From: a virus
Virus record (IMG/VR): IMGVR_UViG_3300047476_000597
Coordinates: 62,001 to 126,000 of that record
DNA length: 64,000 nucleotides
Direction: 5' to 3' (one strand)
The translations under genes and the position numbers were made by a program. Below, in pieces: positions 3,823 to 64,000 of this stretch (positions within the stretch are counted from its first letter, which is position 1; the number at the start of each line of letters is the position of its first letter). Below the pieces are notes generated by a model. That model saw only the letters and a program-made list of their open reading frames with translations. It did not search any database and had not been told where the DNA came from.

Positions 3823-4587
3823 ATGGATAGCAATCTAGTACAAGAGGCAATACCTCAAAAGAAAACAAAAAAACAAATAAAATGGTGGTATCCGGCAAAA
3901 AGAGGATACACAGGAGAGAGTAGAAAGACTGGGTGGGAGTTGTCTACCTACTATAGAAAATTTCTGAGGCCTACAATATCATTCAGAATATCGCCAGCTA
4001 GTTACTTTGATAATAGACTAATGATACGCCTGGATCTATTGTGGGTTAGCTGGTATCTTCATCTTCCTGTATATAGCAATATAGATGAGTGTGATTATCC
4101 TGAGTTTGGATTCTATTACCATATGGATTCATTAGTGCTATGTTGGGGTATGAAGAAAAAGTTCATACACATGCCATGGACATATGAGTGGGTAAGAACT
4201 AGCAGACTCCTCAAAGATGGTAGCTGGTTACATGAAACTAAAGGTAAGAGAAGATCTTGGAAAGAAGAAGACTATAACTGGGAGAAAGAAAATACATGGC
4301 AAGAAACACACCCTTACATCTACGTAACAGACAGACAAGAAATACAAGATGATATACAGGCTACCATAAGAGTAACAGAACGTGAGTGGAGACAGAAATG
4401 GTTAATGTGGACAAAACTAGGAGCTAAGGTACACAAAGACATAGATGTAGAATTTAGTAAAGAAGTGGGTAGTGAGAGAGGTAGCTGGAAAGGGGGTGTA
4501 CTAGGAACAGGACACAAGATGAAGCCTAATGAAACACCATTACAAACACTAAGAAGAATGCAAAGAGAAAGGTCATTCTGCAGATAA
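3823..4587 (+). CDS. Tryptophan-rich protein, unknown function
   Basis: The 254-residue protein is strikingly rich in Trp, Tyr, Arg and Lys, for example KKQIKWWYPAKRGYTGES near the start and TWEWVR-like segments in the middle. There is no signal peptide, although DLLWVSWYLHLPVYS (residues ~70-85) is hydrophobic. The C-terminal third is charged and helical (TEREWRQKWLMWTKLGAK). It sits five bases after the GT4-like gene, in the middle of the glycan cassette, so it may belong with that function or be an unrelated phage protein. I do not recognise the family. Confidence 0.6.
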   Translation: MDSNLVQEAIPQKKTKKQIKWWYPAKRGYTGESRKTGWELSTYYRKFLRPTISFRISPASYFDNRLMIRLDLLWVSWYLHLPVYSNIDECDYPEFGFYYHMDSLVLCWGMKKKFIHMPWTYEWVRTSRLLKDGSWLHETKGKRRSWKEEDYNWEKENTWQETHPYIYVTDRQEIQDDIQATIRVTEREWRQKWLMWTKLGAKVHKDIDVEFSKEVGSERGSWKGGVLGTGHKMKPNETPLQTLRRMQRERSFCR

Positions 4588-39393: not shown

Positions 39394-39807
39394 ATGGCAG
39401 ATATAAAGAAACTACCGGTAAAAGACACAGGGTTATTAACACCTGACATCATAAGAAACAGACTATTCACTGACCATGCAATAGCACATGATTTTCATCT
39501 GGCTACTACATCTTTTGCACAACACAATATGTTGAAAGAGTTGTATGAGTCACTAGAAGACAGTAAAGATGCTATCTGTGAGTATCTATTGGGTATGCAA
39601 GCACCTAAAAGGTTTGGTAAGATGGTTATAGGAGAAACACCTATGTTTTCTACCAGTGCTCTTAGTAGATTCTTAGATGAAGGTGTTGCATTCAGTATGC
39701 AGCTCTGTGAGTATGGAGAGAGTAAGAACTATGAAGAGTTAGTTAATCTAGCAAGCAATCTACAAGGAACATATGTTAAAGGAAAATACCTAAACACATT
39801 ATCATAA
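39394..39807 (+). CDS. Small helical protein
   Basis: The 137-residue protein (MADIKKLPVKDTGLLTPDII...) is mostly helical and acidic, with LKELYESLEDSKDAICEYLL as an amphipathic helix. It sits between the large tail gene and the Gly-Gly-motif proteins, overlaps the next start by one base, and may be a chaperone or minor virion protein. No motif is recognised. Confidence 0.6.
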   Translation: MADIKKLPVKDTGLLTPDIIRNRLFTDHAIAHDFHLATTSFAQHNMLKELYESLEDSKDAICEYLLGMQAPKRFGKMVIGETPMFSTSALSRFLDEGVAFSMQLCEYGESKNYEELVNLASNLQGTYVKGKYLNTLS

Positions 39808-42563
39808 TGAGAAAATACAAACAGATAAAGAGCTATAAAAAAGGAGGTGTTGCTACTATAGATAGTAATACTCCTACTGGTGTGTCTGTTGGTACTCAAC
39901 CATATCAAGACTGGGAACATAGGCCTATTGCAGCCCCTTATAAAACCCCTGTAGAAAAACCAGATATAGATCTAAGATCACTAGAACAACAATATAATGA
40001 CAATATATCTTATCTTAACAGTATACCAGAAAAAGGACTAAAAGAGTTTTCTGCAGCATATAACAAAAGAATGAAAGATATGTCATGGCAGGATCAATTA
40101 CGTCTTGCTAATGAAAGAACAGAATTTCCTTTTAACCTTGCTACATTTCCTGCAGCTGCTGTTGCTAATCTTTCTCAACCATCAAGATATTTTAAAGACA
40201 GACAAGGGTATGCTGGTTTTATGGGGGCAGCAGAGGCAGCTGTAGACGTATCTTCTCTTACTCCTATTGTTGGAGAATATGTTGCGCCTGTTAAAAATGA
40301 GATAGCAGGTATTAGTCGTGCTATGCAACAGGTAAAAAATATAAGAAAAAGAATGGTTCCTGGTGTGCCTCTATCAGCACAAGAGCAGAATCTTTTAAAA
40401 AATACCAGAGTTGTTGGTTCTATATATAATGGTGGAGCAGAAGAATCTGCTAAACTGCAAGCTATACTAGCTAAGGTTGACAATCTTCCTGATGCTAATC
40501 TAAAAGCAGCTACAGGTTATACCAGACAAGAGCTACAAGATAGGCTAGCTTTATTACAACAAGAAGCACCTGTTAAAAAGGCATCAACATCTACTATAGA
40601 CCTAACAAGATATAGAAGACGTGGTAGTATAAGTGATATAGCTGCAGAAGAACAACAGGCACAAGAATATCTCAACAATGTAGCAAGTGCTCCTAGACCA
40701 CAATATGCTCAACTAAACAACACATTGGCAGCCCCACCAGCTGAACTAGTTATAGACCCAAACCTAACAAACAATGTACGTAATTTTATAAACAATACAT
40801 CTATAAACACTAGAAGAAGTTCTGTAGCAGAAAACTTAGTTAATAGTTTTTATGGTGATAATATGAAAGGGTTTTTACCAAAAACAACTACACCAGATAC
40901 AAAATCTCTTATACATGGACTAGCAAAAGATGCAACTAATAATCCAGCCGCACAGATGCTGTCTGCTTATAAAAAAGTAAAAGATGCGCCAAAAGGAGAG
41001 TCTTTTATACCAGCACATTCTTTGTCTGCAGATAGTTATCCAATGTCTCTTAGGCTGATAGAGAAAGCAAAAAAAGAAGGATTAGGTGATATACAATACC
41101 ATGGCTATAATAGGCTAAACAATATGGGTTTTCCTACTAGAGCAGAGTTACCAAAAGACCTGACTGTAAAAGAGATTAACCAATATATAGAAGGTATTAA
41201 TAAAACAGCAAAACAAAAAATACCCTATGCTTATATAGAAGAAGACAATATCTTTGCACCAACATTGACAATAAAAAAGAATCAATACGGTGGTACAATA
41301 AACAACAACAATATGAAAACAGGTGGATTCTACCAAAAGAAAGGAATGTTCTGGGATGGTACTAAGATGGTAAAAGCAAAAGGATCAGGTACATACTCTG
41401 ATGGTACATATTACCAAAACGGAGGACAGACACCTACTGCTTTTTGGAATCTACCTAACCCAACAGATAACCCCGGTGCAGCTGGTATGGTAGACTATGG
41501 TTCTATGTACTCCCTACCTAACAGAGGGTTGTTTCAGAAACAAACAGCTGCATCTGAATGGGAGGGGTTCGGTAATCCAGCTAACCTAATAGGTAATCAG
41601 CAACAACAGCCGGTAGCACAGAACTACCAGACAGCTGGTCAACCTATGCAGTATGCCACAGAGAATAAGAGTAGTTTCTATGAGGGGGCAGGAGAGAATA
41701 ACTACTCTATAGATGCTATTAGACAACAATCTATGGGTACTGGTGGATTATATAAGATGGGTAAACCTCGTTATGGTTCTGGTGGTATACATATCGACCC
41801 ATCTAAAAAAGGTACCTTTAGTGCTGCTGCTGAAAAAAGAGGACAGTCTGTACAGGGTTTTGCTTCACAGGTTCTTGCTAATCCGGGTAACTATTCAGAG
41901 GCTATGAGGAAGAAAGCACAGTTTGCACATAATGCTGCTGGCTGGAAAAAACAGTATGGTGGTATGCAGTATGCTGTTGGTGGGTTTAAACTATCTGTAC
42001 CTACATCACCAGAAGGAGAAACAGAAATACCAGCAGCAGCTGTCTCACAGAATCCTCAGCAGCCATATAATCCTGCTATGAATACTGGTGTGACTCAACC
42101 ATCTAAGGGTGCTGGTACAGTACAACAAAACCCTGTATGGAGACAAGGTATGACAGATCAAGAAGCACAGGCTAACATAAACAACCGTCCTAGTACCGAT
42201 GTGTATATGCAACAGTTTCAACAACCTGTACAACAACGTAGACCATTCGGACAAGGATTTAGTAACTTTACTAACGCTGCTATTGCAGCTGGTGGTATTG
42301 CTGCTGCTTTCAAGAGTGGTAGAGAGATGAAACAGTTTGGTATTAAGAATGGGATGACCAATCTTAATCCTACAGCTGGTTCTAGAGGACAGTATAACCA
42401 ACAAGGTCAGCTAATGCCACAGTTTCAACCACCAGCTAGATACGGTAAACATGGTGGTAGAATGCCGGCACCACAATATAAAACAGGAGGCACCTACACA
42501 GTGTCAGCTGCAGAGATAAAAAGATTACGGGATGCAGGTTACGATATAGAAGAACTAGGATAA
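39807..42563 (+). CDS. Large virion/cargo protein with repeated Gly-Gly motifs
   Basis: The 918-residue protein has a helical N-terminal half with Gln/Lys/Asn-rich segments and no clear fold, then a C-terminal half with short repeats of the form [KQ]xGG[FYTQ]: MKTGGFY, YQNGGQT, KQYGGMQ, YAVGGFK and YKTGGTY. One stretch near residue 660 (GIHIDPSKKGTFSAAAEKRG then QSVQGFASQVLANPGNYSE) is a conserved block I recall from many phage particle proteins. The protein is likely packaged. The Gly-Gly motifs resemble protease sites. The last residues (RLRDAGYDIEELG) form an acidic end. Confidence 0.6.
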   Translation: MRKYKQIKSYKKGGVATIDSNTPTGVSVGTQPYQDWEHRPIAAPYKTPVEKPDIDLRSLEQQYNDNISYLNSIPEKGLKEFSAAYNKRMKDMSWQDQLRLANERTEFPFNLATFPAAAVANLSQPSRYFKDRQGYAGFMGAAEAAVDVSSLTPIVGEYVAPVKNEIAGISRAMQQVKNIRKRMVPGVPLSAQEQNLLKNTRVVGSIYNGGAEESAKLQAILAKVDNLPDANLKAATGYTRQELQDRLALLQQEAPVKKASTSTIDLTRYRRRGSISDIAAEEQQAQEYLNNVASAPRPQYAQLNNTLAAPPAELVIDPNLTNNVRNFINNTSINTRRSSVAENLVNSFYGDNMKGFLPKTTTPDTKSLIHGLAKDATNNPAAQMLSAYKKVKDAPKGESFIPAHSLSADSYPMSLRLIEKAKKEGLGDIQYHGYNRLNNMGFPTRAELPKDLTVKEINQYIEGINKTAKQKIPYAYIEEDNIFAPTLTIKKNQYGGTINNNNMKTGGFYQKKGMFWDGTKMVKAKGSGTYSDGTYYQNGGQTPTAFWNLPNPTDNPGAAGMVDYGSMYSLPNRGLFQKQTAASEWEGFGNPANLIGNQQQQPVAQNYQTAGQPMQYATENKSSFYEGAGENNYSIDAIRQQSMGTGGLYKMGKPRYGSGGIHIDPSKKGTFSAAAEKRGQSVQGFASQVLANPGNYSEAMRKKAQFAHNAAGWKKQYGGMQYAVGGFKLSVPTSPEGETEIPAAAVSQNPQQPYNPAMNTGVTQPSKGAGTVQQNPVWRQGMTDQEAQANINNRPSTDVYMQQFQQPVQQRRPFGQGFSNFTNAAIAAGGIAAAFKSGREMKQFGIKNGMTNLNPTAGSRGQYNQQGQLMPQFQPPARYGKHGGRMPAPQYKTGGTYTVSAAEIKRLRDAGYDIEELG

Positions 42564-47851: not shown

Positions 47852-50800
47852 ATGTTTAATAGCAATATCATATCTGAGAGTATTACACCAACATTAGTAG
47901 GAGCTGGAATACCTACACCGCACTTACAACAACAGTTTTATCAAACAGGCTTGTTGCCATCTAATACTGAAAATGATGTGCCACCATTAGATATAATGGA
48001 CTCTCTTATGGCAGACATGAAAAAAGCAGCACCTACAAAAGAAGCAGGTATGGCCCCAGACTATTTTAACTGGGATAAAAGTGGTGCTGCTCAATATGTT
48101 AATGATCGACATTTCTCCACTATAGGTTTTGATCCTTTTGCATCTGGTATTACTGATCCTACTACAGGCAAAACAGCTAATCCATATGAGATAAGATACC
48201 AACAAGCATCTGATTGGGGAGATGTTATGGGTAAGGCAGCTGGTCAGTTTGTTGGTCTAGCTGGCCTAACAATCAAAGCAGGGTTACAGTCTGATGCACA
48301 TCTTATTAACGCTCTATTCAATCCAGCCTCTTGGTCTGACTATCTATCAGGAAAAGATACATTTGTTAACAAACTAGCTGGTTCTCCAGAAGAACTGCTA
48401 GAAACAGATAAAGAGCTTAAAGATATAATGAATAAATATCATATATACCAGACTCCAATAACACAAGAAGGAATATTCAATAAAGAGTTTCTTGGTGATA
48501 TTGTAGGGCAGTTAGGATTCTCTGCTGGTGCAGCTGGTTATATGATGGGTACTGGGTTATTATTAGGAGGATTAGGACGTATTGTAGGTTCTGGTAAGAA
48601 CATAGCTGCTATGACTCGTTTGGGTAAGGCTATGGAGCAGATGAAAGATGTAGGACATCTAGAGGATCTGAAACAGGTACAGAACCTGATGAGTAGTGGT
48701 AAAACAGCTACAGCAATATCAGAAGATGTTAATATGGTTAAAAGAATGACTGATCTTGGTAAGAATCGTTCTTTTATTGAGGGTGTTGTTGAGAACTTTA
48801 CTCCATTCTATCAAGCTATTACTGATGCAAGAGCTGTTAAGACAGCTGGTGGTACCAGTATGCAGATGTTCCAAGCTACTGTACCAGGGTTGATAAAGAA
48901 CTATACGATGTTTTCAGCTGCTAGGGCAGAAGCATCTATAGAGGCAGCTGGTACCTATGGTGATATGTACATAGGACTCATGGATTCATTCTACGAGAAA
49001 GAAGGTAGACTACCGGATGCCACAGAGGCTATGAATATAAAGAATGCTGCTTATGGTGCTGCTACTGATAACTACATAGTGAACACTGGTCTATTAATGA
49101 CCATGAACAATATACAGTTTGGTAACATGATGAGTAAGTTCTCTAGTACTAAGAGATTATTCAGAGAACTAGCAGAAGCTAGTGATGATGGTCTTATGGC
49201 TGTGAAAGGTAAACTGAAAGACGGTGTTAATGATGTATACAGAGTCTACAATAAAAACTCATTCGGTGGTATAGGTGCTTACAACAAGGTACGTAAAGAT
49301 TTTGGTCTTGGTACCGCTATGTACACAGTACTAAAAAATAATGCTAAGAACCTAGGAAAATGGGAGGTATCTGAAGGATTACAGGAGTTACTACAAGAAG
49401 GTTCTAATAGGTCTTTGACTGAGTACTATACCAACATGTATCATGGTAATAAGGATGTAGATGGTAATATACTGAATAGAGTAGATCTTGCTAAGGGATT
49501 AGGAGACCAGCTGAACAAAGAGGGTTGGAAGACGTTCCTAATGGGCTCCGTTACTGGGCTATTCATGTCTCCACTAACGTCAGCTGTTATGTATGGTAAG
49601 ACAGCTGGTGCAAAAGCTCTATACTCCAACGTAAGAGAAGCTGCAGAGAATAAAAAGAAAACTGTAGAAGCTAATAGACAGCTGCTAGAGACATTCTTCA
49701 ATAATCCTGATACAGCTACAAAAGGATTCAGCAGGTTCAAAGAGCAGATGAAGGTGTCTAAGAATATTGGAGATGCTGCTGCTATTAATGACCCATACAT
49801 GAGTCACAACTCAAAAGACGATGCTATATCACAAGCAGCTGGTGCAGCTGTAAAAGCTGGTATGTTGGATGCTTTTGTAGATAACATTCGTATGATGGGT
49901 GATGGTAGATTCACACCAAAAGAGTTTATGGAACAGTTTAATCTTACAGAAGAGGTTAATCCTAAACAATACACTGAGCAGCTGGCTACTAATATTGAAC
50001 AATACTATATTAATTGGCAAAACCTAAAAGACCGTTATTCTGATCTTATTATACCTGAACTAGAAAAAGATCCGGCTAAACAGCTAGATGCACAATGGAA
50101 AAAAGCAGCATTAAATGAAGCTATAGAGATATTAGCATATAATACGTATCATGCTGGTTCTGCTATGACAAGAGCAGCAGAGATTAAAACTGCAGCTAGC
50201 CAAATACCTGGTATAGGACAAACTACTAGCAGAATATTTGATCTGTTTGGTAATAACAGTGAGTTGGACAAGGAGATCAAACTATTACAACTGAACCTAA
50301 AAACACTAAAAGACACAGCTACAGGAGATCTTGAGCTAACACAACAGGTAAAAGCTACAGAGGACAGGATAAAGGCTTTAGAGTCATGGAAAGAAAAATA
50401 TAATAGGTTACTAGACTCTAAAGAAGAGTCAGAAGAAATGGATAACCTTAAAACAGAACTACAACTCTATATGAGGTTATATATAGAATCTGACAATCAA
50501 TCTAGTGGCAGATCTAATACTAATCTGCTAGACTCTGATTTTGAAAAAGCTTTTAAACTACTAGGAGATTATAACGCTCTTAACAGAGACTATAGTCAGT
50601 ACATAGAAATACTTAATCTACTCTCTAATCCTAAAAACTTTGTTACTATGCATAGTAAGCTGTTTGATGCTATGACAGCTGCTAGGGATACTGTAAAAGA
50701 AGAAGCTAAAAAAGAAGCTGACCTACGTGCTGATATTACTAACGGTGATCCAGTACCAGCAGACACAACAAAAGAAGATGATGAAGATGATGATTTTGCA

Positions 50801-53800
50801 GATAGTGATGTGTTACCTGTAGATACGTATACACCAGTAGAACCAAAAACAAAAGAAGATTTAGAGTTCGCTATAAAACAACTAGAAGATGCTTTTCAGG
50901 CTAGAGTAGCTAATCTTGTAGCTAATGGAGCTACAGAGCAAGATGCTAGAGATATTGCAGAAAAAGAAACACCACAAGATGATAAAGATGCACTAACATC
51001 ATTAAAAGAAAAACTAGCTACACTAAAGAATACAGAAGAACCAGAAACTACCGAAGACGTAGAAGATGATGCAGATGGTCAACCTGTTGTATATACTAAC
51101 CAACAAAACAAAGACAAGATACAGAATATCAATAACATGAATATTCTTACTCTTGCTGGTACAGCTGAACAAAAAGCTGCTAAAGATGCTGTATTAAGAG
51201 ACATTACTCCTGAAGAGTTAAGAGCCGGGTTACGTCTTATTAGTAGACTGTCTGTAGACGATATAGAAAAAGTAGAACTACCTGATGGGAAAATACAGCT
51301 GTTAGATAAGAGAGTAACTACATCAGTAAAAGACCTAGGTACTTATGCTACTGAAGATGAAGTAGATGCTGCTATTAAAAAAGCTATGATGCCTTTTAAA
51401 AAAGGAGACTATGTACAACAGATGCGTAGTACATACACTGTAGCTGTATATTATAATGATACACTAATAGGCTATCTACAACCACCACAGCAATATTTGT
51501 TTACATTCAACGGACATCTAGTTGATGTTAATAGTTTGACACCAGAGCAGTTTGCAGCTGTTGCTATTATACCAGAAGGTATGACAGCTGAAAAGGCTCT
51601 TATTCAGTTTCAACAGAATGTAACTAACAGCTTATCAGTATGGTCTGGACTAGAGCCATTATTATCAGCTGGTAACACTACTCTATCAGGAGAAGAAATA
51701 CCATTCAGAATAACACCATCTAGAGGAGAGAATGATTTTAATAATGAGAAAGAGTCTATACAGTTTAATAATGAGATAGAAAAAATAGAAAAAGAAAGAC
51801 AAGAAAAATTGTCTAGGGTACAGGATGTTCTTATAACACCAGCTGAAGATTTATCTTATAGAGAGGTTAAAGAAGATCCTTATTCAATACAAGAAAATAT
51901 AAAAAAACAAATAAAGAAACTACAAGACCATATAGAAACTCTTAAAAAAGGTAGATTGTATACGTATCTAAGGGACTATGGTACAACAAAACCTAAAACA
52001 GGTTTATATGCTTATTACATAGCACGAGACAATAGTACAAACCCAAATGTTTCTACTATAGGCAGAGTAACTGGTGTTTTAGGTAACAAATTTAAAACTG
52101 ATAAAAATGATAAATTAATAGGAGATCAACAAACAATAGTTGGGTCAAACAACTATTATTATTTCCTTCCATTTGAAATAACCCAGGAAGAAGACACTAG
52201 TAAAGCTATTAACGACATAGAAAATAAAAAACAACCTTTTGTTGCTGAATTAGCAGAGATAGAAAAAGATATTGTTTATCTAAATAGACCAGTACTTAAA
52301 CCTATTAAAACTAAGAACCAAAAAGCAATAGACAGCATTAATGCAGATTATAATAAAAAAATAGCTGCATTAGAAGCTAGTATACCTGACCGTCCTACAT
52401 TAGCAGATATACAAGCACTATATGAGGTAGAAGGAATAATAGATAACTCCGCTAATGAGGTGTACTATGGTAATCCTAGACTCATAGAAGAACAACCTGA
52501 GTATGCTAACAATCTAGGTAACTATCGTGTAGCTGTTAAACTACCTAATGGTCAGAGAGTTTGGTTACAAGCTAAGGGTATTAAGATGACTGATAGTGAT
52601 GTCAAGGACATTGCTAAAAAGATTACTGCGTTTTTTGGTAAGAAAAAGAAAACAGTTAAGGACATAGAGACTCTTAATGAATTACTATCTACTATATTCA
52701 TTACTGCTAGACCAGAAAATGCTAACGGTATATTCTTTGATTTCCGTATATCTGATAAGGGTAATCTTGCTGTTAGATGGTATGACCCTTTTATGAATGA
52801 AGGGCAGGGGGCTAGTGGAGTAATAGATGTTGCTAAAAACGAGACTCCTTTTACAGATATGTCTTCTTTCACCACATACCTTACAGCTGTCATTAATACT
52901 GCTATGACTAGTGATGTAGCTGTTAAAGAAGGTGTTATGTGGCCCAAAGACGGTGTAGTATTCACTGAGTACAATGTACGTAAACAACCTGATGTGAATG
53001 CACTAGACCAGATGGAGATTACCTCTAACATTGGTCTGGTTAAGAATATAGTACCATCAGTAGTACCAGAAACACCGGCACCTATTAAAGGACTGGAGGT
53101 AATACCAGCACAGACTGACATACCAATAGAGCCTAGTGTAGAAGGGAAGAGTTCTGTAGATGTACCAGTAGCAGTTACACAAGAGACTAACGGTACACAA
53201 CCTACTGTAGAGTCTTTGGCTCAGTTAGAAGATGATGACTGGATAGACAGTATTATAGCATTAAAAACAGTACCAGCTGATGAGGTTTTTACTGGGCAGT
53301 CTGTAGAGAATATAGGACGGTTTAGCGATTACATAAAAAAGAACCTACCATCGTGGTTGACTATAGAAGAGGTTGATTCTTTTATAGATACATTATATAA
53401 CAACAACATTACAGCTGGCGAGTTTATGTACTACCTAGATAAGACTGGTAATGTGCAAGCTGTTATACGTACTAATAAAGACTCTGTAGGTAAATACCAT
53501 GAGGCATTTCATATGGTGTTCCGTCTATTGTTACCACAAGAGACAATAGATAGACTACTCAACGAGGTAGCTGGTATATATCCTGCAACACCAGCAAGAT
53601 TACAGGCTCTTAGAGAGTCTTCTCCATTATATACTGAGATGTCAGAAGAACAGCTGACTGAGATCTTGTACGAAGAATACATGGCTGATCAGTTTGATGC
53701 TTTTAGAATGGGGCGTACAGATAGAGTAACTACTGGTATTCGTGGTTTCTTTAACAGACTAACAGACTGGATAAACTGGTTGTGGGCTCAGTTTACTGGT

Positions 53801-56800
53801 GCTGATATGAAAGGACTATTCTATGAGATAGAGCGTGGTTCTTTCAGGAATAGCACTGTACAGCCTAACCAGTATGTGAATAATATAGGTACCAGTGCTA
53901 ATGTTGCTAAGAAGGTTATACCAATAGGTACTGAGACTATACAGACACCATCAGGACCTAAACAGGTTACTAAATACCTACCACAACAAGAAGGAGAGAT
54001 AATATCTTCTACTATGGCTGCTTTGTTCCTGAAGAAAGCTCTATTAGAAGGTAGCTATAATACTAATGCAGTATATAAAGAGATACTAGATACATATGCT
54101 GCTATGTATAATCCAGCTGATCCAAAATACCGGGAGAGAGCTAAAGAGATGTCTAGAGTAGACAAAGAAGCTGCTATACGTTGGTTTCTTAGACTGAAAG
54201 AACGTCACAACCTGTTTATATCTGATGCTGGTAGAACTGCACTAAAAGATGCTGCTAATGTCTACCTAAAAATATCTGGTATAAAAACAGAAATGGAAGA
54301 AGATGAGGTAGAAGATCTTACAGATGACTACGGAGAACGTAATGTAGAAGATAGAAAACGTCCTACTACATACGCTGCCCTATCTGCATTCTTACGTCAG
54401 TTTATAGGTGGTACTACTGTAACATTCACCGATGAGTTTGGTAATACAGAGTTTTCAGCAGGTGTTCCATTAGTACAGGCTATTAATGCTAATAAGGTGT
54501 ACAATGGTATGATTAAACTGCTGTCTAACCAGTCAGGTGCTACTGATATGATTAGTCGTATGTGGAGTATGCGTAATGATGATAGCAACCCAGAGACAGC
54601 TGCATTCATCAGAGAGGTAATAAGAGAAACTGGTCTAGAATATGATGATACTACTAAAACATTCACTACAGCTAAGAATAGTATACTCATACAACAAGTG
54701 ATAAAAGGGTTCAACATGTTTGAACTAGATCATCTGTTTGTACAGATGGATAATAATAATAAGGTGCGTGTATTTTCAGCTAACTCACAAGAGGTAACAC
54801 AGAATCAACTGAATGCATGGAGCTCAGAGTTTGAAATACGTCTAGGTAATAAACTAGTAGGCAAGAGCAAGAAAGATGTAAAAGAGATGGTGACTGCTGC
54901 TACTGGTGGTTTTGATGAGATGTTGTCTAATATGAATAACAAGACAGCACTAGCTACACATATTGGCACTGTTGAGCTGCAAAACCTTAGTAAACAGATA
55001 GCTAACAGAATATATGCTGGTACCGGCATTAAACTGTCTCCTAGATACATAGAATATTCTATTGCTTTTGCTAAAGATGATAATGTAAGGACAGCTGAAC
55101 AACGTGTACTGTTACGTGGTTATACTGATGTGGAACCATTAACAGTTGAAGATATTAGGGGTATAAAATACTCGTTGCTAAAAGGAGATAATGTATTCAT
55201 AGAAACAGAGGACAATAAAGGAGCTATTGGTAGGTTAAAAACAATGGCACTGGGTAATGCACAGTTTGATGAGTCTGTGAATACCATGTCGTACCAAACA
55301 GCTGATGGGGAAACTGTGTACTCTCATACACTACCATCTTGGATTACTGTTATGACTAATAAACTGAACAATGAGATGTTCAGAGAAGACCTTATGCAAG
55401 ATCCTGATAGACGTTCTTTCTTATTAGAGAGTGAACGTTTCTTAGAACTAGCTAGACAACGTAAGATAAAGGTTATAGGAGCAGATGGTTTAAAAAGAGT
55501 AGACATGTTTGAGCCTGGTGCTACTGTAGATGATATTGGTAGGGCTGTTACTAACACTGATGGTAAGGTGATGGGTGATTTTACGCCTAGAGAGTTTTTG
55601 GTCTACCTATTATCTACGTATGTAAAACCTAAAAATGTTGTTACAACACAAAAACCCATAGAGAAATATACAGATGAAGAAGGTGTAGAGTATGCTACAG
55701 AGGCCTTTACTACTGCACCTGTTATGTTGCGTACTATAGAGGCTAAAAACCAGATGTTCTTTATGGAACTACCTATTGTTGCAGCTGTAGAGAATAATAG
55801 ATTATCACAACAGGTAGTAGACATCATGTATGACATGGTGCTGCAAGAACAACAGAGAATAGCTAGAGTAAAAGAAGAGATAAAGACTATAGCAAAACAA
55901 GCTACCAGACCACTAAAAGACGGTGAGGTTAGAGTAGAGGTAAAAGAAGGGTATCACACTGGTAAAAACCCAAGAGGATTAAAACTATTTAATACTGCTC
56001 TTATGATGGGTGACATGGCTGCTGATATAGAAGCTGGAAAACCTATAGATAAGGATGCACTAACAGAACAGCTGAACAGATACTGGTTAGCAGAGACAGA
56101 AGCCCTTATTACTGACATGCGTGTATTAGGTCTTGTAAGAAAAGAAGAAGATGGTATCAAGAATCTGTTGGCACCAGAGTACCTATTCAAAGGGGAGAAA
56201 GGTGATTATAACCTAATACCTGGTGATTTCTTTCATAATGTAATGCAGGTGTTTGTCAATGACTATGTGAATAGTGCTGCTGCTAATAAACTGTTATTAG
56301 GAGAAGAGGCTATGAGTTTCAAGAATACCATAGATCAGGTTAAGAGAGCTTCTGGTTGGGCTGCTGCAGGACCTGATATGAGAGTATTAGTAACGGCACC
56401 AGAGTGGGGTATTAATCACACACTCAGTACATTCCACCACTTCACATTTGCTGATCCTAGGTTTAGAAAGATGACTGACGGTGTTGATAAGAATGGTAAA
56501 CTAGAGGCTACTGGTGACAAAGCAGATGCTCTGATGTACATGACTGAAAAAGCACAGAGATATGCACTATTCGGTTTTGGTACGCTCAACAAAACACAGG
56601 TAGATGCTCTTAATACTCTAGCTGATGGTAATCAGTTATCTAAAGAAGAGGTGTTTGGTTCTGACGGATTAATAAAAGCAGGTGCTTTTAACAGTATGAA
56701 ACTGGTGTATTTTGATGGACAAAACTATCTCAAAAACTCTACTATAACCCTATTCAAAACATTTACATCTCTACCAGACAGTAACGGAGAGTTCACTATA

Positions 56801-59800
56801 CCATTCCCAGGTCTAGAACATCTGCATGAGTTACGTCTTAAGATGGAAGAGTTTGAGGCTAAGAGTGATACTATAGTGTTTGGACACCCTGTTACTGCTT
56901 CTAAGGGCATGAAGGTAGATATAGCACCTACTGTTTCAGCTGTTACTGATAGTAACTTCCAACAGCTAAATGCTCAGTACATGAGAAAACAGGTAGAGAA
57001 TCCATCTAACAAGATACAGATTACCTCTCCTACTCAGGCTATGATTCAGATTATGGCTGAACAAAACCCTGATACTAAGGTTGTATTCTTAGGTAGTGAG
57101 AAAGACAGTGATGGTAATGACTGGACTGTAGGTAGAATACGTGACATATATCAAGAGAGTATAGCACAAAGGAAGACTAATAGTTTTAATACAGCTGTTA
57201 ACGACATAGTAGATTATGAGGGAGCATTAGTTGAGTTACAGACTAGTATAGACATACAAAAGCTGACTCCTAAACTAGGTCGCTTTATTAAGAATGCACA
57301 GGAGATGTTAATGGCTACTGGTGCTGACAGCCAGACACTAGGATTCTTTGAGCTAGACGCACAGGGAGAACCTATATACGACATGAACTTTCCAGCTGTA
57401 CTAACAAAATACACGCAGCTGTTCCTTAGTTATTTCTCTAAGGGCATATTATCAGAAAAGGTTCCTGGTATGTCAGTAGCTACTGTGTCACCATGGGGTA
57501 TACGTAAGATTAAAATAGTGACTAGTATATGGAAAGAAGGTGACAAGGGCTACAAGAAAGCACTAGAAGGACAACCACGTACATGGAAGGTAGTAACAGA
57601 TGCTGAGATAAGAGCTAATCCAGCTGCATATAGTAATCCTATTGACTGGAGTACACAAGATGAGTATGCAAGAAGATACGAGGGGCTACAGGTAGGAGAT
57701 ATATACGTAGATGATCTTAGACACAACTATCCAAAATACGATGAGAAAGGTAATTACCTAGGACAGTTTTCTGAGTGTCTTATACCAGCTCATTATAAAG
57801 ATGTTATGGATAAAATACCAGAAGCATTACGGTTTATGTTTGGTATTCGTATTCCATCTGATGATAAGCACTCTTATGTAGCACTAGAGTATGTAGACAC
57901 ATTACCGGCTCAGTATGGTAGTGTTGGTGTATTCCCACAAGAGATTATAGAGATCTCTGGTATGGACTTTGATATAGACAAGATGTACATAGAGATGGCT
58001 GATACCTATGCAGAACTGCAAAGAGAAAACCAAGAAGAATATGATACGTTAAAAAATATAATAGACAGAACAAAAGCCAGATTAAACGAACTTTCTGGTA
58101 TGTTTGAAAATACTCCTGGGTATTCTAAAGAAATAGCAGACAAAGGACGACAGATAAAAGAAGTAAAGAAATATGTTAAAGCGCAGTATGACAATCTAGT
58201 TATTACAGAGTCTGATTACATTGATAGAATACAAGAACTGGATAATGAGTTAGAGTCTCTTGGTACTATGGAAGGAGCAAAATATAGAAGACCTATCATA
58301 CAAGAGATGAAATCTTTATCTGGACAATTAGTAGGAATAAAAGCCAGAATAAAACAATTAACAGAAACATCTGTTAGAGTGGCTTATGGTTCAAAAACTG
58401 ACACACAAGGAATATTTGATGAGTATGTAAAATGGCAATTTGCTAATAATAATGCATTTAGAGCTAAAATAAAAGAACTAGCTAGTATAGGACCAGTTGA
58501 TGTAGGTGGAGATATAGTAGGTAATATAAACTCAGACATTATAGCAGACATAGAAGATATTTATGAGTTATTATCTGCAACTTCTATAGATAAGATGATT
58601 CTTAAGACTGCTTTAGCAGAGTTAGGTATGCCTACTGATGCTATAGAGTATTATAATATGACCCATGAAAATGGTGTACAGATAAAAGATCTCAACAACG
58701 GTGTGCTTACTAACAAAGCTCTATCTGCTAAACTAGCTATGTTAAATAACGATGATATTGCAGTAGATACAGAAGAACAGCTGTCTATACTCAACCAGGG
58801 TACGTCAGTAGACATCCTCAGTAGTTTAGTAGATGACCTTGTTGTAGAGTTTACTGCTATGCAATCTAACGAGAGCATACCAGCTGCAGATAAGAAGAAC
58901 ATCACTAGAGTACTGAAGGTTCTACAGGAACCAGATGTTAATGTGGATAGTCTTAGAGGTAAACTAGCTTCTAATATGAATAACAAAGAAGGTAGCCGTA
59001 ATATTGGAGCAGCTGTTCTATCTATGTTGGTGTTCTCTACACTGAACCAGCACAATATGACACTGTCATCAACAGACTATCAGCTGTCGTTTGATGGTAA
59101 GGACTATTTTAGCTTCATAGATACTAAAACAACTGATGGTAAAAGAAAGTTTGCACAGATCTCTGCTATTGTGAATGCAATGACGGACAATGCTAAAGAA
59201 AGACTAGCAGCTAAACTAGGACTGAACATAGAAGCAGTTGGTTATGTATCTGCTATGGTGGCTCTTGGTGTACCTATTAAAACAGCTACACTAATGATGT
59301 TACAACCTATAGTAAGAACCTATTTTAAACAGCTACAGGCTACTAAGGGTAGTATAAAAACAGACGAAGAAAAAAAGGTACGTGCTTCTACTTTACTAGC
59401 TAACATAATAGACAGTGTTAAAAACATTGGTGGAGTAGACCTTACAGATACTAACATGATTAGCAATATAGCTGGTGGTGACAATAACTCAGCTGTTAGT
59501 GCATCTGCTATACGTATGTTGGCTAGAGTAGATAAGGTATCACAAAACATTGCACAGATAGCTAAGGTTACTAGACTACAAAAGGGATTGCCAAAAACAT
59601 ATGAAGAGATTGATAGTATACTATCAACTATAGCAACATTGTCAGATCCTTTTACACCGGCACCTATACCATTCTTTACTGTTATAGGTACTGATCCTAT
59701 TATGCGTACTAACATACGTATATTGGAGCAGATCAACAGTATAGCACCAGCATTCTTTACAGAAAGAACGGCTGCCTTTAAGAACATAACAGACATCATA

Positions 59801-61525
59801 CATGCTAACTTTGAACCAGAAAGAAGAGCTGATAGAGATAGGTATATAGCTACTGTTAAGAACGACCTACTATCTTTTCTAGCTATTAAGGCATATATGC
59901 ACAGTATGGCTGGTAAACCAGAGGTTAAGAATAGTCTACGTCACTCACTCATATATTCTACAGCTGGTGAACAGACTATTGTAGATATAGTAAAAGAGCT
60001 CAGAGAGTTAATATCAACGGAGGGTAGTGGTAGGAATAGAAAGAACCTAATGATACACAACTTCTTGAATGCTGTAGATGCTAAGATAACAGAGACCGGT
60101 ATAGATGAGTTACGTGCTAGAAACTGGACTAAACTATCTGAGGGGTATATAGAATCATTAGCTGGTGCTTTTGTAGACCTATATTCTAACAGTATCACAG
60201 ACAAGAATAATAAACCTCTTAATACTCATACTCAGGCTATTGCTATATTCAACTACCTGTTAGTAAAAGACGGTGGTCAGTTTAAAAACAACAGTTTCTT
60301 ACGTTACATACCCAACTTTGTATTCATGGATCTGTTATCTTCTTCTAAAGAGGTTAATAAGATGATGAAGCTAGGTTATAGGGCTACTGAAGAAGATTAC
60401 ATGCGTGTTTTTGGTGCTTTATTGCAAGATGTTAGGAAACAGTTTATAGATAGTTATGGTATGCATACTAACAACTTCTATAACATTAAGAAGGTATCTG
60501 GTTATACTGGTGCTATTACTGTTACTAGAACTGATATTAAGATAAACACTATAGTAGCACCAGCCGTTAAACTGGATACTATTGGTGGCCTCTCTTACAC
60601 TACTGAGATAAATGAGAACACTGGAGTAAAAGAGGTAATATACCAGCTGCCCTACTATGTTAAGATATTAGATAAACTATATAAACTCTCTACCGTAGAT
60701 GGCGCAGCTGTAACAACAGGCTCTAGTACTTCAATACAAACAGGTAAAGAGGCTGAGTATACTGTAGTATATGGTGGTTCTAGAGGTTCTAAGAATACAT
60801 CTATGATGACTGGTGTATTTGGTGAGTTACCTATGAGACCTGGTGTAAAACCAGCTTATACACAAGGACAAACAGAAGCAGCACCAGTACCTGCAGTTGG
60901 TACTGGTAATTTTACACCTCAAGAAGAGTATTCAGCTCCTTTTGAAGATGAGTCTACTATATCTGCTCAACCTGTTGTATCTTCGCAACCTATGCAACCA
61001 GTGCAACAACCTACAGCTGCTCAGAAAATAGTTAATGAGATTGTTACTCCTGAGTTACAAGAGAAAGCTATGGGAACAAAGGTATGGACTGAGTTTTCTG
61101 TTGGAGATAACATAAGAGGTGAAATTATTGGCAATATAGAATATGCAGGTGATAATGGTTTTGCTCCCAAGATACAACTAACTGTTATGGAAGATAACGG
61201 AAAAACATGGAGTAGAGTGTTTTCTTCTAGTGATAATGATTCTTGGAGATATGAGAAAGTTTTTTATGATGTGTACAATAAGATACAAGATAACTGGAAC
61301 AAAAAGAAGAAGCAACTATACAAAGCATTAGAACAACCTACAGCTGGTACCACATTACCCGGCTCAGTATGGAAAACAGAACTAGCTGCTATATATAAAG
61401 AGAAAGGAGATAAAAAAGGAAGGACTGAACTAGAATGGACTGAGGCTGCTACTAGATTCAGAGACAAAGAAAGACAAACAGGAGCTACAGATCAACAGAT
61501 ATTAGACACTATAAAATGTATATAA
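47852..61525 (+). CDS. Giant virion RNA polymerase fused to a zincin
   Basis: The 4557-residue protein combines several parts. Near residues 215-245 a Gly-rich hydrophobic stretch (GFSAGAAGYMMGTGLLLGGL) may insert in a membrane. An acidic linker (KEDDEDDDFADSD, ~975-985) and others (~1080, ~1790) divide it. HEAFH at 1883-1887 with Glu1941/1942 downstream (LYEEYMADQF) fits a zinc metallopeptidase. SGMDFDIDKMYIE places the catalytic DxDxD of crAss-like virion RNA polymerases at Asp3372, 3374 and 3376. This is followed by a ~200-residue coiled-coil insertion. A basic, flexible C-terminus follows from ~4320. Known relatives (phage phi14:2 gp66, about 2180 residues) are shorter and transcribe early genes after injection. 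Confidence 0.85.
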   Translation: MFNSNIISESITPTLVGAGIPTPHLQQQFYQTGLLPSNTENDVPPLDIMDSLMADMKKAAPTKEAGMAPDYFNWDKSGAAQYVNDRHFSTIGFDPFASGITDPTTGKTANPYEIRYQQASDWGDVMGKAAGQFVGLAGLTIKAGLQSDAHLINALFNPASWSDYLSGKDTFVNKLAGSPEELLETDKELKDIMNKYHIYQTPITQEGIFNKEFLGDIVGQLGFSAGAAGYMMGTGLLLGGLGRIVGSGKNIAAMTRLGKAMEQMKDVGHLEDLKQVQNLMSSGKTATAISEDVNMVKRMTDLGKNRSFIEGVVENFTPFYQAITDARAVKTAGGTSMQMFQATVPGLIKNYTMFSAARAEASIEAAGTYGDMYIGLMDSFYEKEGRLPDATEAMNIKNAAYGAATDNYIVNTGLLMTMNNIQFGNMMSKFSSTKRLFRELAEASDDGLMAVKGKLKDGVNDVYRVYNKNSFGGIGAYNKVRKDFGLGTAMYTVLKNNAKNLGKWEVSEGLQELLQEGSNRSLTEYYTNMYHGNKDVDGNILNRVDLAKGLGDQLNKEGWKTFLMGSVTGLFMSPLTSAVMYGKTAGAKALYSNVREAAENKKKTVEANRQLLETFFNNPDTATKGFSRFKEQMKVSKNIGDAAAINDPYMSHNSKDDAISQAAGAAVKAGMLDAFVDNIRMMGDGRFTPKEFMEQFNLTEEVNPKQYTEQLATNIEQYYINWQNLKDRYSDLIIPELEKDPAKQLDAQWKKAALNEAIEILAYNTYHAGSAMTRAAEIKTAASQIPGIGQTTSRIFDLFGNNSELDKEIKLLQLNLKTLKDTATGDLELTQQVKATEDRIKALESWKEKYNRLLDSKEESEEMDNLKTELQLYMRLYIESDNQSSGRSNTNLLDSDFEKAFKLLGDYNALNRDYSQYIEILNLLSNPKNFVTMHSKLFDAMTAARDTVKEEAKKEADLRADITNGDPVPADTTKEDDEDDDFADSDVLPVDTYTPVEPKTKEDLEFAIKQLEDAFQARVANLVANGATEQDARDIAEKETPQDDKDALTSLKEKLATLKNTEEPETTEDVEDDADGQPVVYTNQQNKDKIQNINNMNILTLAGTAEQKAAKDAVLRDITPEELRAGLRLISRLSVDDIEKVELPDGKIQLLDKRVTTSVKDLGTYATEDEVDAAIKKAMMPFKKGDYVQQMRSTYTVAVYYNDTLIGYLQPPQQYLFTFNGHLVDVNSLTPEQFAAVAIIPEGMTAEKALIQFQQNVTNSLSVWSGLEPLLSAGNTTLSGEEIPFRITPSRGENDFNNEKESIQFNNEIEKIEKERQEKLSRVQDVLITPAEDLSYREVKEDPYSIQENIKKQIKKLQDHIETLKKGRLYTYLRDYGTTKPKTGLYAYYIARDNSTNPNVSTIGRVTGVLGNKFKTDKNDKLIGDQQTIVGSNNYYYFLPFEITQEEDTSKAINDIENKKQPFVAELAEIEKDIVYLNRPVLKPIKTKNQKAIDSINADYNKKIAALEASIPDRPTLADIQALYEVEGIIDNSANEVYYGNPRLIEEQPEYANNLGNYRVAVKLPNGQRVWLQAKGIKMTDSDVKDIAKKITAFFGKKKKTVKDIETLNELLSTIFITARPENANGIFFDFRISDKGNLAVRWYDPFMNEGQGASGVIDVAKNETPFTDMSSFTTYLTAVINTAMTSDVAVKEGVMWPKDGVVFTEYNVRKQPDVNALDQMEITSNIGLVKNIVPSVVPETPAPIKGLEVIPAQTDIPIEPSVEGKSSVDVPVAVTQETNGTQPTVESLAQLEDDDWIDSIIALKTVPADEVFTGQSVENIGRFSDYIKKNLPSWLTIEEVDSFIDTLYNNNITAGEFMYYLDKTGNVQAVIRTNKDSVGKYHEAFHMVFRLLLPQETIDRLLNEVAGIYPATPARLQALRESSPLYTEMSEEQLTEILYEEYMADQFDAFRMGRTDRVTTGIRGFFNRLTDWINWLWAQFTGADMKGLFYEIERGSFRNSTVQPNQYVNNIGTSANVAKKVIPIGTETIQTPSGPKQVTKYLPQQEGEIISSTMAALFLKKALLEGSYNTNAVYKEILDTYAAMYNPADPKYRERAKEMSRVDKEAAIRWFLRLKERHNLFISDAGRTALKDAANVYLKISGIKTEMEEDEVEDLTDDYGERNVEDRKRPTTYAALSAFLRQFIGGTTVTFTDEFGNTEFSAGVPLVQAINANKVYNGMIKLLSNQSGATDMISRMWSMRNDDSNPETAAFIREVIRETGLEYDDTTKTFTTAKNSILIQQVIKGFNMFELDHLFVQMDNNNKVRVFSANSQEVTQNQLNAWSSEFEIRLGNKLVGKSKKDVKEMVTAATGGFDEMLSNMNNKTALATHIGTVELQNLSKQIANRIYAGTGIKLSPRYIEYSIAFAKDDNVRTAEQRVLLRGYTDVEPLTVEDIRGIKYSLLKGDNVFIETEDNKGAIGRLKTMALGNAQFDESVNTMSYQTADGETVYSHTLPSWITVMTNKLNNEMFREDLMQDPDRRSFLLESERFLELARQRKIKVIGADGLKRVDMFEPGATVDDIGRAVTNTDGKVMGDFTPREFLVYLLSTYVKPKNVVTTQKPIEKYTDEEGVEYATEAFTTAPVMLRTIEAKNQMFFMELPIVAAVENNRLSQQVVDIMYDMVLQEQQRIARVKEEIKTIAKQATRPLKDGEVRVEVKEGYHTGKNPRGLKLFNTALMMGDMAADIEAGKPIDKDALTEQLNRYWLAETEALITDMRVLGLVRKEEDGIKNLLAPEYLFKGEKGDYNLIPGDFFHNVMQVFVNDYVNSAAANKLLLGEEAMSFKNTIDQVKRASGWAAAGPDMRVLVTAPEWGINHTLSTFHHFTFADPRFRKMTDGVDKNGKLEATGDKADALMYMTEKAQRYALFGFGTLNKTQVDALNTLADGNQLSKEEVFGSDGLIKAGAFNSMKLVYFDGQNYLKNSTITLFKTFTSLPDSNGEFTIPFPGLEHLHELRLKMEEFEAKSDTIVFGHPVTASKGMKVDIAPTVSAVTDSNFQQLNAQYMRKQVENPSNKIQITSPTQAMIQIMAEQNPDTKVVFLGSEKDSDGNDWTVGRIRDIYQESIAQRKTNSFNTAVNDIVDYEGALVELQTSIDIQKLTPKLGRFIKNAQEMLMATGADSQTLGFFELDAQGEPIYDMNFPAVLTKYTQLFLSYFSKGILSEKVPGMSVATVSPWGIRKIKIVTSIWKEGDKGYKKALEGQPRTWKVVTDAEIRANPAAYSNPIDWSTQDEYARRYEGLQVGDIYVDDLRHNYPKYDEKGNYLGQFSECLIPAHYKDVMDKIPEALRFMFGIRIPSDDKHSYVALEYVDTLPAQYGSVGVFPQEIIEISGMDFDIDKMYIEMADTYAELQRENQEEYDTLKNIIDRTKARLNELSGMFENTPGYSKEIADKGRQIKEVKKYVKAQYDNLVITESDYIDRIQELDNELESLGTMEGAKYRRPIIQEMKSLSGQLVGIKARIKQLTETSVRVAYGSKTDTQGIFDEYVKWQFANNNAFRAKIKELASIGPVDVGGDIVGNINSDIIADIEDIYELLSATSIDKMILKTALAELGMPTDAIEYYNMTHENGVQIKDLNNGVLTNKALSAKLAMLNNDDIAVDTEEQLSILNQGTSVDILSSLVDDLVVEFTAMQSNESIPAADKKNITRVLKVLQEPDVNVDSLRGKLASNMNNKEGSRNIGAAVLSMLVFSTLNQHNMTLSSTDYQLSFDGKDYFSFIDTKTTDGKRKFAQISAIVNAMTDNAKERLAAKLGLNIEAVGYVSAMVALGVPIKTATLMMLQPIVRTYFKQLQATKGSIKTDEEKKVRASTLLANIIDSVKNIGGVDLTDTNMISNIAGGDNNSAVSASAIRMLARVDKVSQNIAQIAKVTRLQKGLPKTYEEIDSILSTIATLSDPFTPAPIPFFTVIGTDPIMRTNIRILEQINSIAPAFFTERTAAFKNITDIIHANFEPERRADRDRYIATVKNDLLSFLAIKAYMHSMAGKPEVKNSLRHSLIYSTAGEQTIVDIVKELRELISTEGSGRNRKNLMIHNFLNAVDAKITETGIDELRARNWTKLSEGYIESLAGAFVDLYSNSITDKNNKPLNTHTQAIAIFNYLLVKDGGQFKNNSFLRYIPNFVFMDLLSSSKEVNKMMKLGYRATEEDYMRVFGALLQDVRKQFIDSYGMHTNNFYNIKKVSGYTGAITVTRTDIKINTIVAPAVKLDTIGGLSYTTEINENTGVKEVIYQLPYYVKILDKLYKLSTVDGAAVTTGSSTSIQTGKEAEYTVVYGGSRGSKNTSMMTGVFGELPMRPGVKPAYTQGQTEAAPVPAVGTGNFTPQEEYSAPFEDESTISAQPVVSSQPMQPVQQPTAAQKIVNEIVTPELQEKAMGTKVWTEFSVGDNIRGEIIGNIEYAGDNGFAPKIQLTVMEDNGKTWSRVFSSSDNDSWRYEKVFYDVYNKIQDNWNKKKKQLYKALEQPTAGTTLPGSVWKTELAAIYKEKGDKKGRTELEWTEAATRFRDKERQTGATDQQILDTIKCI

Positions 61526-61529: not shown

Positions 61530-64000
61530 ATGGCAAGCTGTCCTAACTACAACGCACCAGAGTTTAAAGAAATAGAGGCTTTGTTTGGAAGAACAAGATC
61601 TACTCTTGCTTTTCATAAAAATAATGATACAATACCATCACCAGAACTAGCAGCCCGACTATTACGTGTTAAACTAGAACCAGTACTAGATTATGAAGAA
61701 GCTGTTCAACGGTTACTAACAGGTTTTGAAAAAGGCTTAGTAGCAGTTACTAACACCCCAGATAGATATGTTTATAGAACTACTAAAGGTGGGTATACAG
61801 AAATAGCAGCTAAGGTAGCAGAGTGGAAAAACAAAACTACTGCTTTTAGTAAGGTTAGGGTAGAAGCCAGTGATAACTATGAAACCTTTCGTTTTGTTCG
61901 TGTTACTGAACCATATAGCAAACTAACAGAAGATGAGTTTGGAGAGATATACCCAGAACCACTATCACCAGCTATACAGGCTCGTATAGAGAGAGAGGTA
62001 GAGGCTCTTATGTCTAATGAGTACTATAATAAAGATGGTGAGCTAGTTAGTAGTGCAGATGATATAAAATACCAGCTTACTAATGCAACAACAGAACAAC
62101 CAATACAAGACCTAGACAACATTATCAAAAGATTCGTAGCTGCTATGGGTGGTAATGTTACTAATGTAGGTGACATTGTTATTAACGGCAAAAAAATAGA
62201 TGCTGTAGCTGTTGTTGATATTCTTAATAGAGCTATACAGATAGCAGATGGTAAAGCAGACATCACTACTCTACCAGAAGAAGCAGTCCATCTATTCATA
62301 GAACTATTACCAGCTAACCATCCTCTATTAAAAGAGATGCTAGCTGACATTAAGAAGAAACAGGTGTATCAAGATGTACTAGCTGAGTATGGTACTAACG
62401 AGTTTTATCTCAACCCAGATGGTACTGTTAACACAGATAAAATAGCTAAAGAGGCTATTGGTAAACACATTGCAGCTGTTATAGTAGGTAGATATAAAGA
62501 CACTAAGAGTATGTCTTTTTGGAAGAGACTGTGGAGATGGATCTCAGAACGACTAGCTGGTAAAAAACTAGATGCCTATACACAGGTAGCTAAGGATATA
62601 CTAGGTGGTAAACTGAGTAAGATAGAAGAGACAGCTGCTAAAAAAGCTAATAAAGAAGGTCGTTATTGGTTCCAGCTACCGAAGAATACTAATGCTATTG
62701 TACAGGGTATTGCAGCTACCGGCACTAAACAACAAAAGGAGATAATCAGAGACTTGGTTATAGAACCAAAGGTTACATTCATAGAGAATAAAGCTCTTGG
62801 TGTACGAGAATATCGTAGTACTATTATAGGTAATGAGGGTAGAACATATCCTGGTTTCTCATCACAGCTGGCTGTAGAAGGGCCACCTAATCCAGAAGAA
62901 TATGAGATTAATAGACAATGGGGAGAAGACCTAGACTCTATACTAGCCGGTGTTATATTGAACCAAAAACTATCAGACATTAATACTCCTACTCTTAATG
63001 ATACTATCAGACAAAAGGCATACGATCTGTTTGAAGAGTATCTATCACCATACAAAGAAGCTGGTTATGTAGCTGTACCACAGGTTATTGTCTATGACGA
63101 TGCTGCTAATATAGCATCTGCTATTGATCTGTTGTTAATATCTCCTACTGGTGCTCTAAAAGTTGTAGACCTAAAAAGCTCTTGGACATCTGCTGCTAAT
63201 ATACAAAAATACAAAGGAACAGCATGGCCGTTGTTACCTACCAGTAGAGTAATCAGCAATACACAATCTATATCAAAGTTCCGTCAGCATAATGTACAGG
63301 TTAATACCTACAACAAACTGCTACGACTCATGGGCTATCAAGATATAGAAGATGCTGCTATTAAGAATATACAGATAATGTATAGGGACAATAACGGTGT
63401 TTTTACAGCTACTGATATAAAAGAGGATAATGACCAAACAACAGCCGGCACTGGGTATGTAAAAGAACGTGTTGTAGATCCATCTGCTGAAGAGGGACTA
63501 GTAGAGCTTATGGTCCCTGTAGCTGTTGATTATACTAAAGACAACCTAGAGACCTGGGGAATAAAACCTAAGATAACAGCTAGTACAGAGCCGGAATCTA
63601 AACCGTATGAACGTATAGACGAAGAACTAACAGCTGATGATAAGGATAGTCTATCTAAAGAGTTCTCTAATATGTTTGAGGCCCTTAAACAATATAGAAC
63701 ATTGTTAGCAGATAGAAGAGCAAAAGCTAGTAATGCAGAAGAAAAAACAGATAGGTCAAAAGCTCTAGACACACTAGAAGAGGTCATGAGTACTATGCTT
63801 GCAGCTGTTGATAATACTAAGAATGGTAGAGAGATAGCATACACACAGTTTCTTTTGTATGTTAATAAGGGACTAGAGGATATAATAACAGTACTGAGTA
63901 AAGAAGAGAATAAGCACAACCCACTGTATCTACACTGGACTATTATGGCCGAGGCTTTTGTTACTCAGTTTCAGGGCTATACAGGTTTATTCAGATTCTC
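61530..64000 (+). CDS. Large injected-type protein with RecB-like nuclease (cut by right edge)
   Basis: The frame opens with ATG at 61530, four bases after the giant gene's stop, and stays open for 823 codons to the edge, so the start is sure and the end unknown. TLPEEAVHLFIELLPANHPL (E250, E251, H254) resembles a zincin helix in which the first His is replaced by Glu, so peptidase activity is doubtful. SAIDLLLISPTGALKVVDLK gives D533, D547 and K549, and QVNTY gives Q590 and Y594, the D...DxK...QxxxY pattern of RecB-like PD-(D/E)XK nucleases. An amphipathic helix (FWKRLWRWISERLAG, ~330-345) could touch membranes. It is probably packaged with the polymerase. Confidence 0.75.
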   Translation, partial: MASCPNYNAPEFKEIEALFGRTRSTLAFHKNNDTIPSPELAARLLRVKLEPVLDYEEAVQRLLTGFEKGLVAVTNTPDRYVYRTTKGGYTEIAAKVAEWKNKTTAFSKVRVEASDNYETFRFVRVTEPYSKLTEDEFGEIYPEPLSPAIQARIEREVEALMSNEYYNKDGELVSSADDIKYQLTNATTEQPIQDLDNIIKRFVAAMGGNVTNVGDIVINGKKIDAVAVVDILNRAIQIADGKADITTLPEEAVHLFIELLPANHPLLKEMLADIKKKQVYQDVLAEYGTNEFYLNPDGTVNTDKIAKEAIGKHIAAVIVGRYKDTKSMSFWKRLWRWISERLAGKKLDAYTQVAKDILGGKLSKIEETAAKKANKEGRYWFQLPKNTNAIVQGIAATGTKQQKEIIRDLVIEPKVTFIENKALGVREYRSTIIGNEGRTYPGFSSQLAVEGPPNPEEYEINRQWGEDLDSILAGVILNQKLSDINTPTLNDTIRQKAYDLFEEYLSPYKEAGYVAVPQVIVYDDAANIASAIDLLLISPTGALKVVDLKSSWTSAANIQKYKGTAWPLLPTSRVISNTQSISKFRQHNVQVNTYNKLLRLMGYQDIEDAAIKNIQIMYRDNNGVFTATDIKEDNDQTTAGTGYVKERVVDPSAEEGLVELMVPVAVDYTKDNLETWGIKPKITASTEPESKPYERIDEELTADDKDSLSKEFSNMFEALKQYRTLLADRRAKASNAEEKTDRSKALDTLEEVMSTMLAAVDNTKNGREIAYTQFLLYVNKGLEDIITVLSKEENKHNPLYLHWTIMAEAFVTQFQGYTGLFRF

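Follow-up and report, generated by a model that had tools for sequence, protein, structure and literature searches.

The locus examined here raises the question of how a single reading frame comes to carry both the motif of a zinc peptidase and the catalytic motif of an RNA polymerase (RNAP), and whether the peptidase serves to cut the chain that contains it. The window, i.e., the whole stretch of DNA analysed, comprises 64,000 nucleotides and covers positions 62001-126000 of a virus record that is 133,627 bases long (IMGVR_UViG_3300047476_000597). The original prediction described a zinc peptidase and a virion RNAP in one chain of the crassvirus lineage, built of separable modules. Re-examination of the sequence reconfirmed the frame, which runs for 4557 codons from an ATG without an internal stop, and both motifs (HEAFH at residues 1883-1887 and DFDID at residues 3372-3376); the peptidase, the polymerase, the lineage and the two modules are all supported.

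Crassviruses are the most abundant phages of the human gut. The present phage was assigned to the Crassvirales on the basis of its muzzle, ring protein 1 and Crass_capsid families (Pfam), and the giant open reading frame (ORF) occupies the position expected of a crassvirus RNAP, following the muzzle gene and the cargo-region genes. The phage sits far from the named gut families of the order: the closest capsid relative is just 26% identical to the capsid protein of the window, and no near-identity DNA match to the window was found among phage records. The nearest named capsid relative is the Leptolyngbya phage Lbo-JY46 (PP438436.1, L095 in our set of loci; 25.6%, E=1e-24), which also possesses a homologue of the window's muzzle protein (E=5e-71). 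This phage infects a cyanobacterium and is classed as Caudoviricetes only; it looks like a crassvirus-like phage with a host outside the Bacteroidota. The features of the window that are relevant to the present analysis are as follows (all on the + strand).

34589-39391, +: muzzle protein, a crassvirus marker (Pfam PF25731 crAss_MUZ, E=2.4e-19)
39807-42563, +: cargo-region gene resembling Rudgehvirus "gene49" (phmmer, E=1.1e-25)
47852-61525, +: giant ORF of 4557 aa, in which a zincin-bearing RNAP-associated protein continues into the catalytic virion RNAP
47852-53101, +: N-terminal part, residues 1-1750; residues ~36-680 are homologous to crAss001 gp47 and crAssphage gp45
53276-53857, +: zincin-like metallopeptidase domain, residues ~1809-2002 (family HMM, AF2 model)
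53498-53512, +: HEAFH, two predicted His zinc ligands and general-base Glu; H, E and H invariant in the aligned relatives
53675-53677, +: Glu1942, predicted third zinc ligand, in the EE pair 1941-1942; also invariant in the separate-gene forms
53858-53977, +: junction, residues ~2003-2042, between the gp47-type end and the gp50-type RNAP start (HMM mapping; gap-rich)
53978-61522, +: two-barrel-type virion RNAP part, residues ~2043-4557 (HMM mapping and model)
57965-57979, +: DFDID, RNAP catalytic metal-binding motif; G.DFD.D is invariant in crassvirus RNAP alignments
61530-64000, continuing to genome position 129067, +: next gene, gp49/gp65-type RNAP-associated protein (1845 aa), similar to crAss001 gp49; full length in locus L011
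62277-62291, +: EEAVH motif of the zincin-like domain in the next gene, Glu replacing the first zinc-ligand His (hhalign)

Searches with the whole giant protein against the PDB (phmmer) and against Pfam and PHROGs (hmmscan) gave nothing useful, and its homology signal came from family profiles and a model only. Similarly, the related-locus search retrieved no relatives when queried with the protein alone, with its RNAP stretch or with the capsid protein; the related loci (L numbers) were retrieved with a 10-phage alignment.

In the RNAP part, the DFDID motif is informative through homology only, since 1.4 DxDxD occurrences are expected by chance in a protein of such composition. Residues 2900-4199 match crassvirus RNAP genes (tblastn, E down to 2e-12), the G, D, F, D and D residues are invariant in an alignment of the RNAPs of ten phages, and the 10-phage profile matches 6VR4, the solved virion RNAP of Cellulophaga phage phi14:2, at 4.6e-31. 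The structure prediction that had been proposed for residues 2900-4300 was run on residues 2939-4137, with the window and its IMG/VR relatives as sole input. In the PDB, the resulting model (pLDDT 72.7, pTM 0.74) matches one entry significantly, 6vr4_A (E=1.2e-14, prob 1.00, TMq 0.50), which confirms the expected fold, and the match implies that the chain would contain two double-psi beta-barrels. Virion RNAPs of the N4 type are T7-like polymerases; no such single-subunit fold was recovered here, the model matching significantly only the two-barrel enzyme. The earlier statement that known virion RNAPs are about half the size of the window protein holds for phi14:2 gp66 (2180 aa) and crAss001 gp50 (2412 aa), but not for crAssphage gp44 (4070 aa), its cr110 counterpart (4417 aa) or other fused forms, which reach at least 5052 aa.

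The zincin-like domain is marked by a motif, HExxH, with a chance expectation of 0.02 in a protein of this composition, and residues 1754-2074 match the family HMM at E=2e-55. H1883, E1884, H1887, E1941 and E1942 are invariant in 29 of 29 relatives. Conclusions on the zincin were drawn from this 29-row set: in the larger alignment of 52 rows, seven (L053, L054, L064, L076, L081, L084 and L086) fail the family HMM and may represent chance HExxH occurrences, and the HMM itself was built with these doubtful rows included. The AF2 model comprises an N-terminal helix and three strands, followed by the HEAFH helix and the Glu helix (in model numbering, helices 69-79, 129-141 and 180-204 and strands 84-88, 104-110 and 116-122, with Glu1942 on helix 180-204), and its core pLDDT is mostly 75-95. 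This topology agrees with the core of the zincin-like MPTases of polyvalent proteins as defined by Iyer et al., namely three strands flanked by one helix on the N-terminal side and two on the C-terminal side (PMC5512222). Structure prediction of the peptidase region thus placed the HEAFH and Glu1942 helices in the expected core topology, but comparison of the model with the PDB gave no significant match, only a weak one to a solved zincin (E=0.5). The peptidase fold therefore rests on the motif and its residues, on the topology and on the zincin annotation of crAssphage gp45. One member of the family matches Pfam Tox-MPTase4 at 5e-4. The peptidase is probably active. In the nearest relatives of the window by RNAP (L021, L022 and L024), the domain is kept and is fused to the RNAP, with the motif reading EEAFH. 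The gene start in these loci lies just upstream of the zincin, such that the chain is split upstream of the domain, which forms the N-terminus of the RNAP protein (L021:5963-15658, L024:5837-15907).

The N-terminal part is homologous to crAss001 gp47 and crAssphage gp45 over residues ~36-680, with hhalign P values of 8e-21 to 3e-31 against the gp47 set and 1e-8 to 6e-30 against the gp45 set. A transmembrane ejection segment was not found in this part, as no 19-residue stretch exceeded the hydropathy cut-off. In order to map the boundary between the halves, a fused-family HMM spanning HExxH to DFDxD was used. The gp47-type proteins match only its positions 1-152 and the separate RNAPs start at 125-298 (147-247 for the crAss001-like ones), and the halves therefore meet at window residues ~2005-2070. 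Beyond the zincin, conservation is lowest at the junction, which is variable and has no shared motif. The acidic linkers that had been envisaged between the parts are not there: the strongly acidic runs (951-1000 and 1061-1090) lie inside the N-terminal part, and the junction is not acidic. In nine named crassviruses, one protein carries the zincin at its C-terminus and a second protein is the RNAP. In the giant protein, two known capsid-cargo proteins of crassviruses are joined end to end, one of the gp47/gp45 type (residues 1 to ~2020) and one of the gp50/gp66 type (residues ~2040-4557).

Comparison with characterized phages places this fusion among several arrangements of the same components. 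In crAss001, gp47 carries HEAFH near its C-terminus and gp50 carries DFDVD at 1483, their summed length being 2341+2412 = 4753 aa versus 4557 aa in the window protein; gp49 is the counterpart of the next gene of the window. These are three separate proteins, with gp47 encoded on the strand opposite gp49 and gp50, and all three were located in virions (PMC10172136, PMC6235969). The text of PMC10172136 ties the solved homologue to gp49; the DFDxD motif and our alignment place 6VR4 (phi14:2 gp66) with gp50. In crAssphage (Carjivirus communis), KP06_gp45, annotated as "putative RNAP associated protein fused to zincin protease", directly precedes KP06_gp44, annotated as "putative RNAP catalytic subunit fused to unknown RNAP subunit", in the same domain order as in the window. 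Unlike the window, where the RNAP is joined to the preceding zincin protein, crAssphage maintains separate zincin and RNAP genes and its RNAP is joined to the following subunit. Phage phi14:2 shares with the window both the RNAP fold with DFDID (gp66) and the gene order (muzzle, cargo genes, gp67, RNAP gp66, gp65), and the products of gp67, gp66 and gp65 were detected in its virions by MS/MS; its RNAP stands alone, and HExxH occurs in gp65 and not in gp67. Like the window protein, the N4-type virion RNAP is a giant single chain with a zincin-like MPTase, but its peptidase is C-terminal of the RNAP (PMC5512222). In Thermus phage P23-45, which is long-tailed, a two-barrel virion RNAP is likewise contained in a giant virion protein of 5002 aa (PMC10770324), but its fusion partner is the tail tape measure protein; the text of that paper nowhere uses the word "peptidase". 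Large multidomain proteins of the crassvirus transcription block have already been described (PMC7886860), a zincin-virion RNAP pairing, possibly self-processing, was put forward in 2017 for N4-like phages (PMC5512222), and the zincin and RNAP are already annotated in neighbouring crAssphage genes. As far as we have checked, four points are new: where the junction maps, how widely the fusion occurs in uncultured phages, that close relatives have lost the catalytic His, and that an EExxH domain is paired with the zincin.

Among 80 related IMG/VR loci, the zincin and the RNAP share an ORF in 37. At least 23 of these have 1150 or more residues ahead of the zincin and count as full fusions, with ORFs of 3323-5052 aa, several of them truncated at the edge of the locus. 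Elsewhere among the relatives, the border between the genes falls at a more upstream point, and the zincin is preceded by ~50-1050 residues. The zincin is on a separate ORF in 16 loci, and the remaining loci lack a zincin or the motif within the stretch examined. On the RNAP tree, the same-ORF versus separate state requires just two changes with the cleaned labels (six when the doubtful HExxH rows were included), and this state is thus old and stable. In a single metagenomic contig, the loss of a stop codon through an error of assembly or sequencing might be suspected, the more so as the two genes directly abut in phi14:2; we give this artefact practically no credence, as it is refuted by the 23 other contigs with the full fusion (a few pairs of which are nearly identical) and by the rarity of changes of state on the tree. 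In three further loci (L032, L059 and L061), the RNAP ORFs have 2700-3250 residues before DFDxD with no zincin-1 match in that stretch, such that something else is fused before their RNAP.

The next gene contains a second zincin-like domain; an alignment of its family profile to the first zincin extends across 165 columns (hhalign, P=6e-10, prob 96.6). In most crassviruses this second domain reads EExxH, and its His-to-Glu change is specific and recurrent. HExxH is present in the second domain of phi14:2 gp65, L021/L022, L025, L040, L065, L067, L075 and L076, and in one copy in L091. In phi14:2, gp65 reads HEIMH and gp67 is devoid of HExxH; in L021/L022, the second domain reads HEIVH and the first EEAFH. 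A rule of one active zincin per phage was considered and is ruled out by L025, L040, L065 and L075, which have HExxH in both domains, and by L024, which has EEAFH in the first and no second HExxH within its locus. The two zincin-fold domains beside the RNAP might form a peptidase/pseudopeptidase pair, or provide alternative active sites, for processing or controlling the transcription proteins once these are ejected, which would include freeing the RNAP from the fused chain after entry; we offer this as a speculative reading that we consider unlikely.

The original prediction interpreted the chain as a polyprotein in which the zincin cleaves the chain that carries it, in assembly or on injection, liberating the N-terminal part, the peptidase and the RNAP. 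The separability of the modules has stood up, as the halves are separate genes in other crassviruses and are joined by a variable, linker-like junction; that the peptidase is there to cut its own chain has fared less well. A self-processing polyprotein would be expected to have a conserved cleavage site between its modules, and none is present at residues 2003-2042. Nor is the peptidase conserved only or mainly in fused forms: HExxH and the third Glu are intact in proteins apart from the RNAP (crAss001, crAssphage and others), so zincin conservation is independent of the fused RNAP, and the first His is lost in a clade where zincin and RNAP are fused. The latter loss can be read in the opposite direction, since in L021/L022/L024 the gene splits upstream of the zincin, and the peptidase could have become dispensable once the chain was split; alternatively, catalysis could simply be dispensable, and the case comprises one clade. 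The virion gel of crAss001 displays bands at 150, 270 and >300 kDa (PMC6235969), and the masses of gp49, gp47 and gp50 are 154.5, 262.5 and 276.9 kDa (PMC10172136); this agreement, a match by mass, suggests that the three proteins, the intact peptidase protein among them, are uncut in the virion. Self-processing by zincins has been proposed for phage multidomain proteins, and DdrB of phage P1 is cut before packaging, but the N4 virion RNAP, likewise with an MPTase, is packaged unprocessed (PMC5512222). Taken together, the evidence on self-cutting is mixed and stands mostly against cleavage before infection; self-cleavage is possible, most plausibly after ejection, and the polyprotein reading as originally worded is rather doubtful.

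The same independence of zincin conservation from the fusion is consistent with an injected effector that acts on host or other phage proteins, the RNAP chain serving for delivery only. Zincin MPTases are the commonest domain of phage and plasmid polyvalent proteins, for which an effector role was proposed (PMC5512222), and the match of one family member to Tox-MPTase4 points the same way; the homologous second domain beside the RNAP, however, suggests a role tied to the transcription cargo. We regard the effector role as a serious possibility, short of an even chance. A mainly structural zincin, e.g., an element of assembly or packaging with dispensable catalysis, would account for domains that persist without the first His (EEAFH in L021/L022/L024 and EExxH in most second domains) and for phi14:2 gp67, and encapsidation in N4 depends on the MPTase region (PMC5512222). 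It is improbable nonetheless, given that HExxH and the third Glu are invariant in 29 of 29 other, very divergent relatives.

We consider it likely that the giant protein, fused at residues ~2003-2042 from two virion-travelling crassvirus proteins, enters the virion as a single chain and refolds inside the host, where the RNAP would serve the early genes and the zincin would act after entry. The domain composition, the junction, the homologies, the conserved catalytic residues and the recurrence of the fusion are direct observations on the loci compared; packaging, ejection and early transcription would carry over from relatives at 20-30% identity. In crassvirus relatives, the RNAP is packaged in the virion and transcribes early genes (PMC10172136, PMC7886860). 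By analogy with N4, packaging of the fused protein would most likely be as one chain, and at infection this chain would be threaded through the portal and tail in an at least partly unfolded state before refolding in the host. The RNAP part would subsequently transcribe the early genes together with the gp49/gp65-type product of the next gene. The peptidase would most likely work after entry, either in trans on host or phage proteins or on its own chain, thereby freeing the RNAP; its substrate is a matter of conjecture.

The fused form represents a natural single-chain version of two ejected crassvirus proteins and marks the boundary between them. It makes testable whether the zincin kept by most of the crassviruses examined serves in processing, acts as an effector or plays a structural role, and a chain of ~500 kDa that would have to pass the tail and refold presents a strong case for the study of protein ejection.
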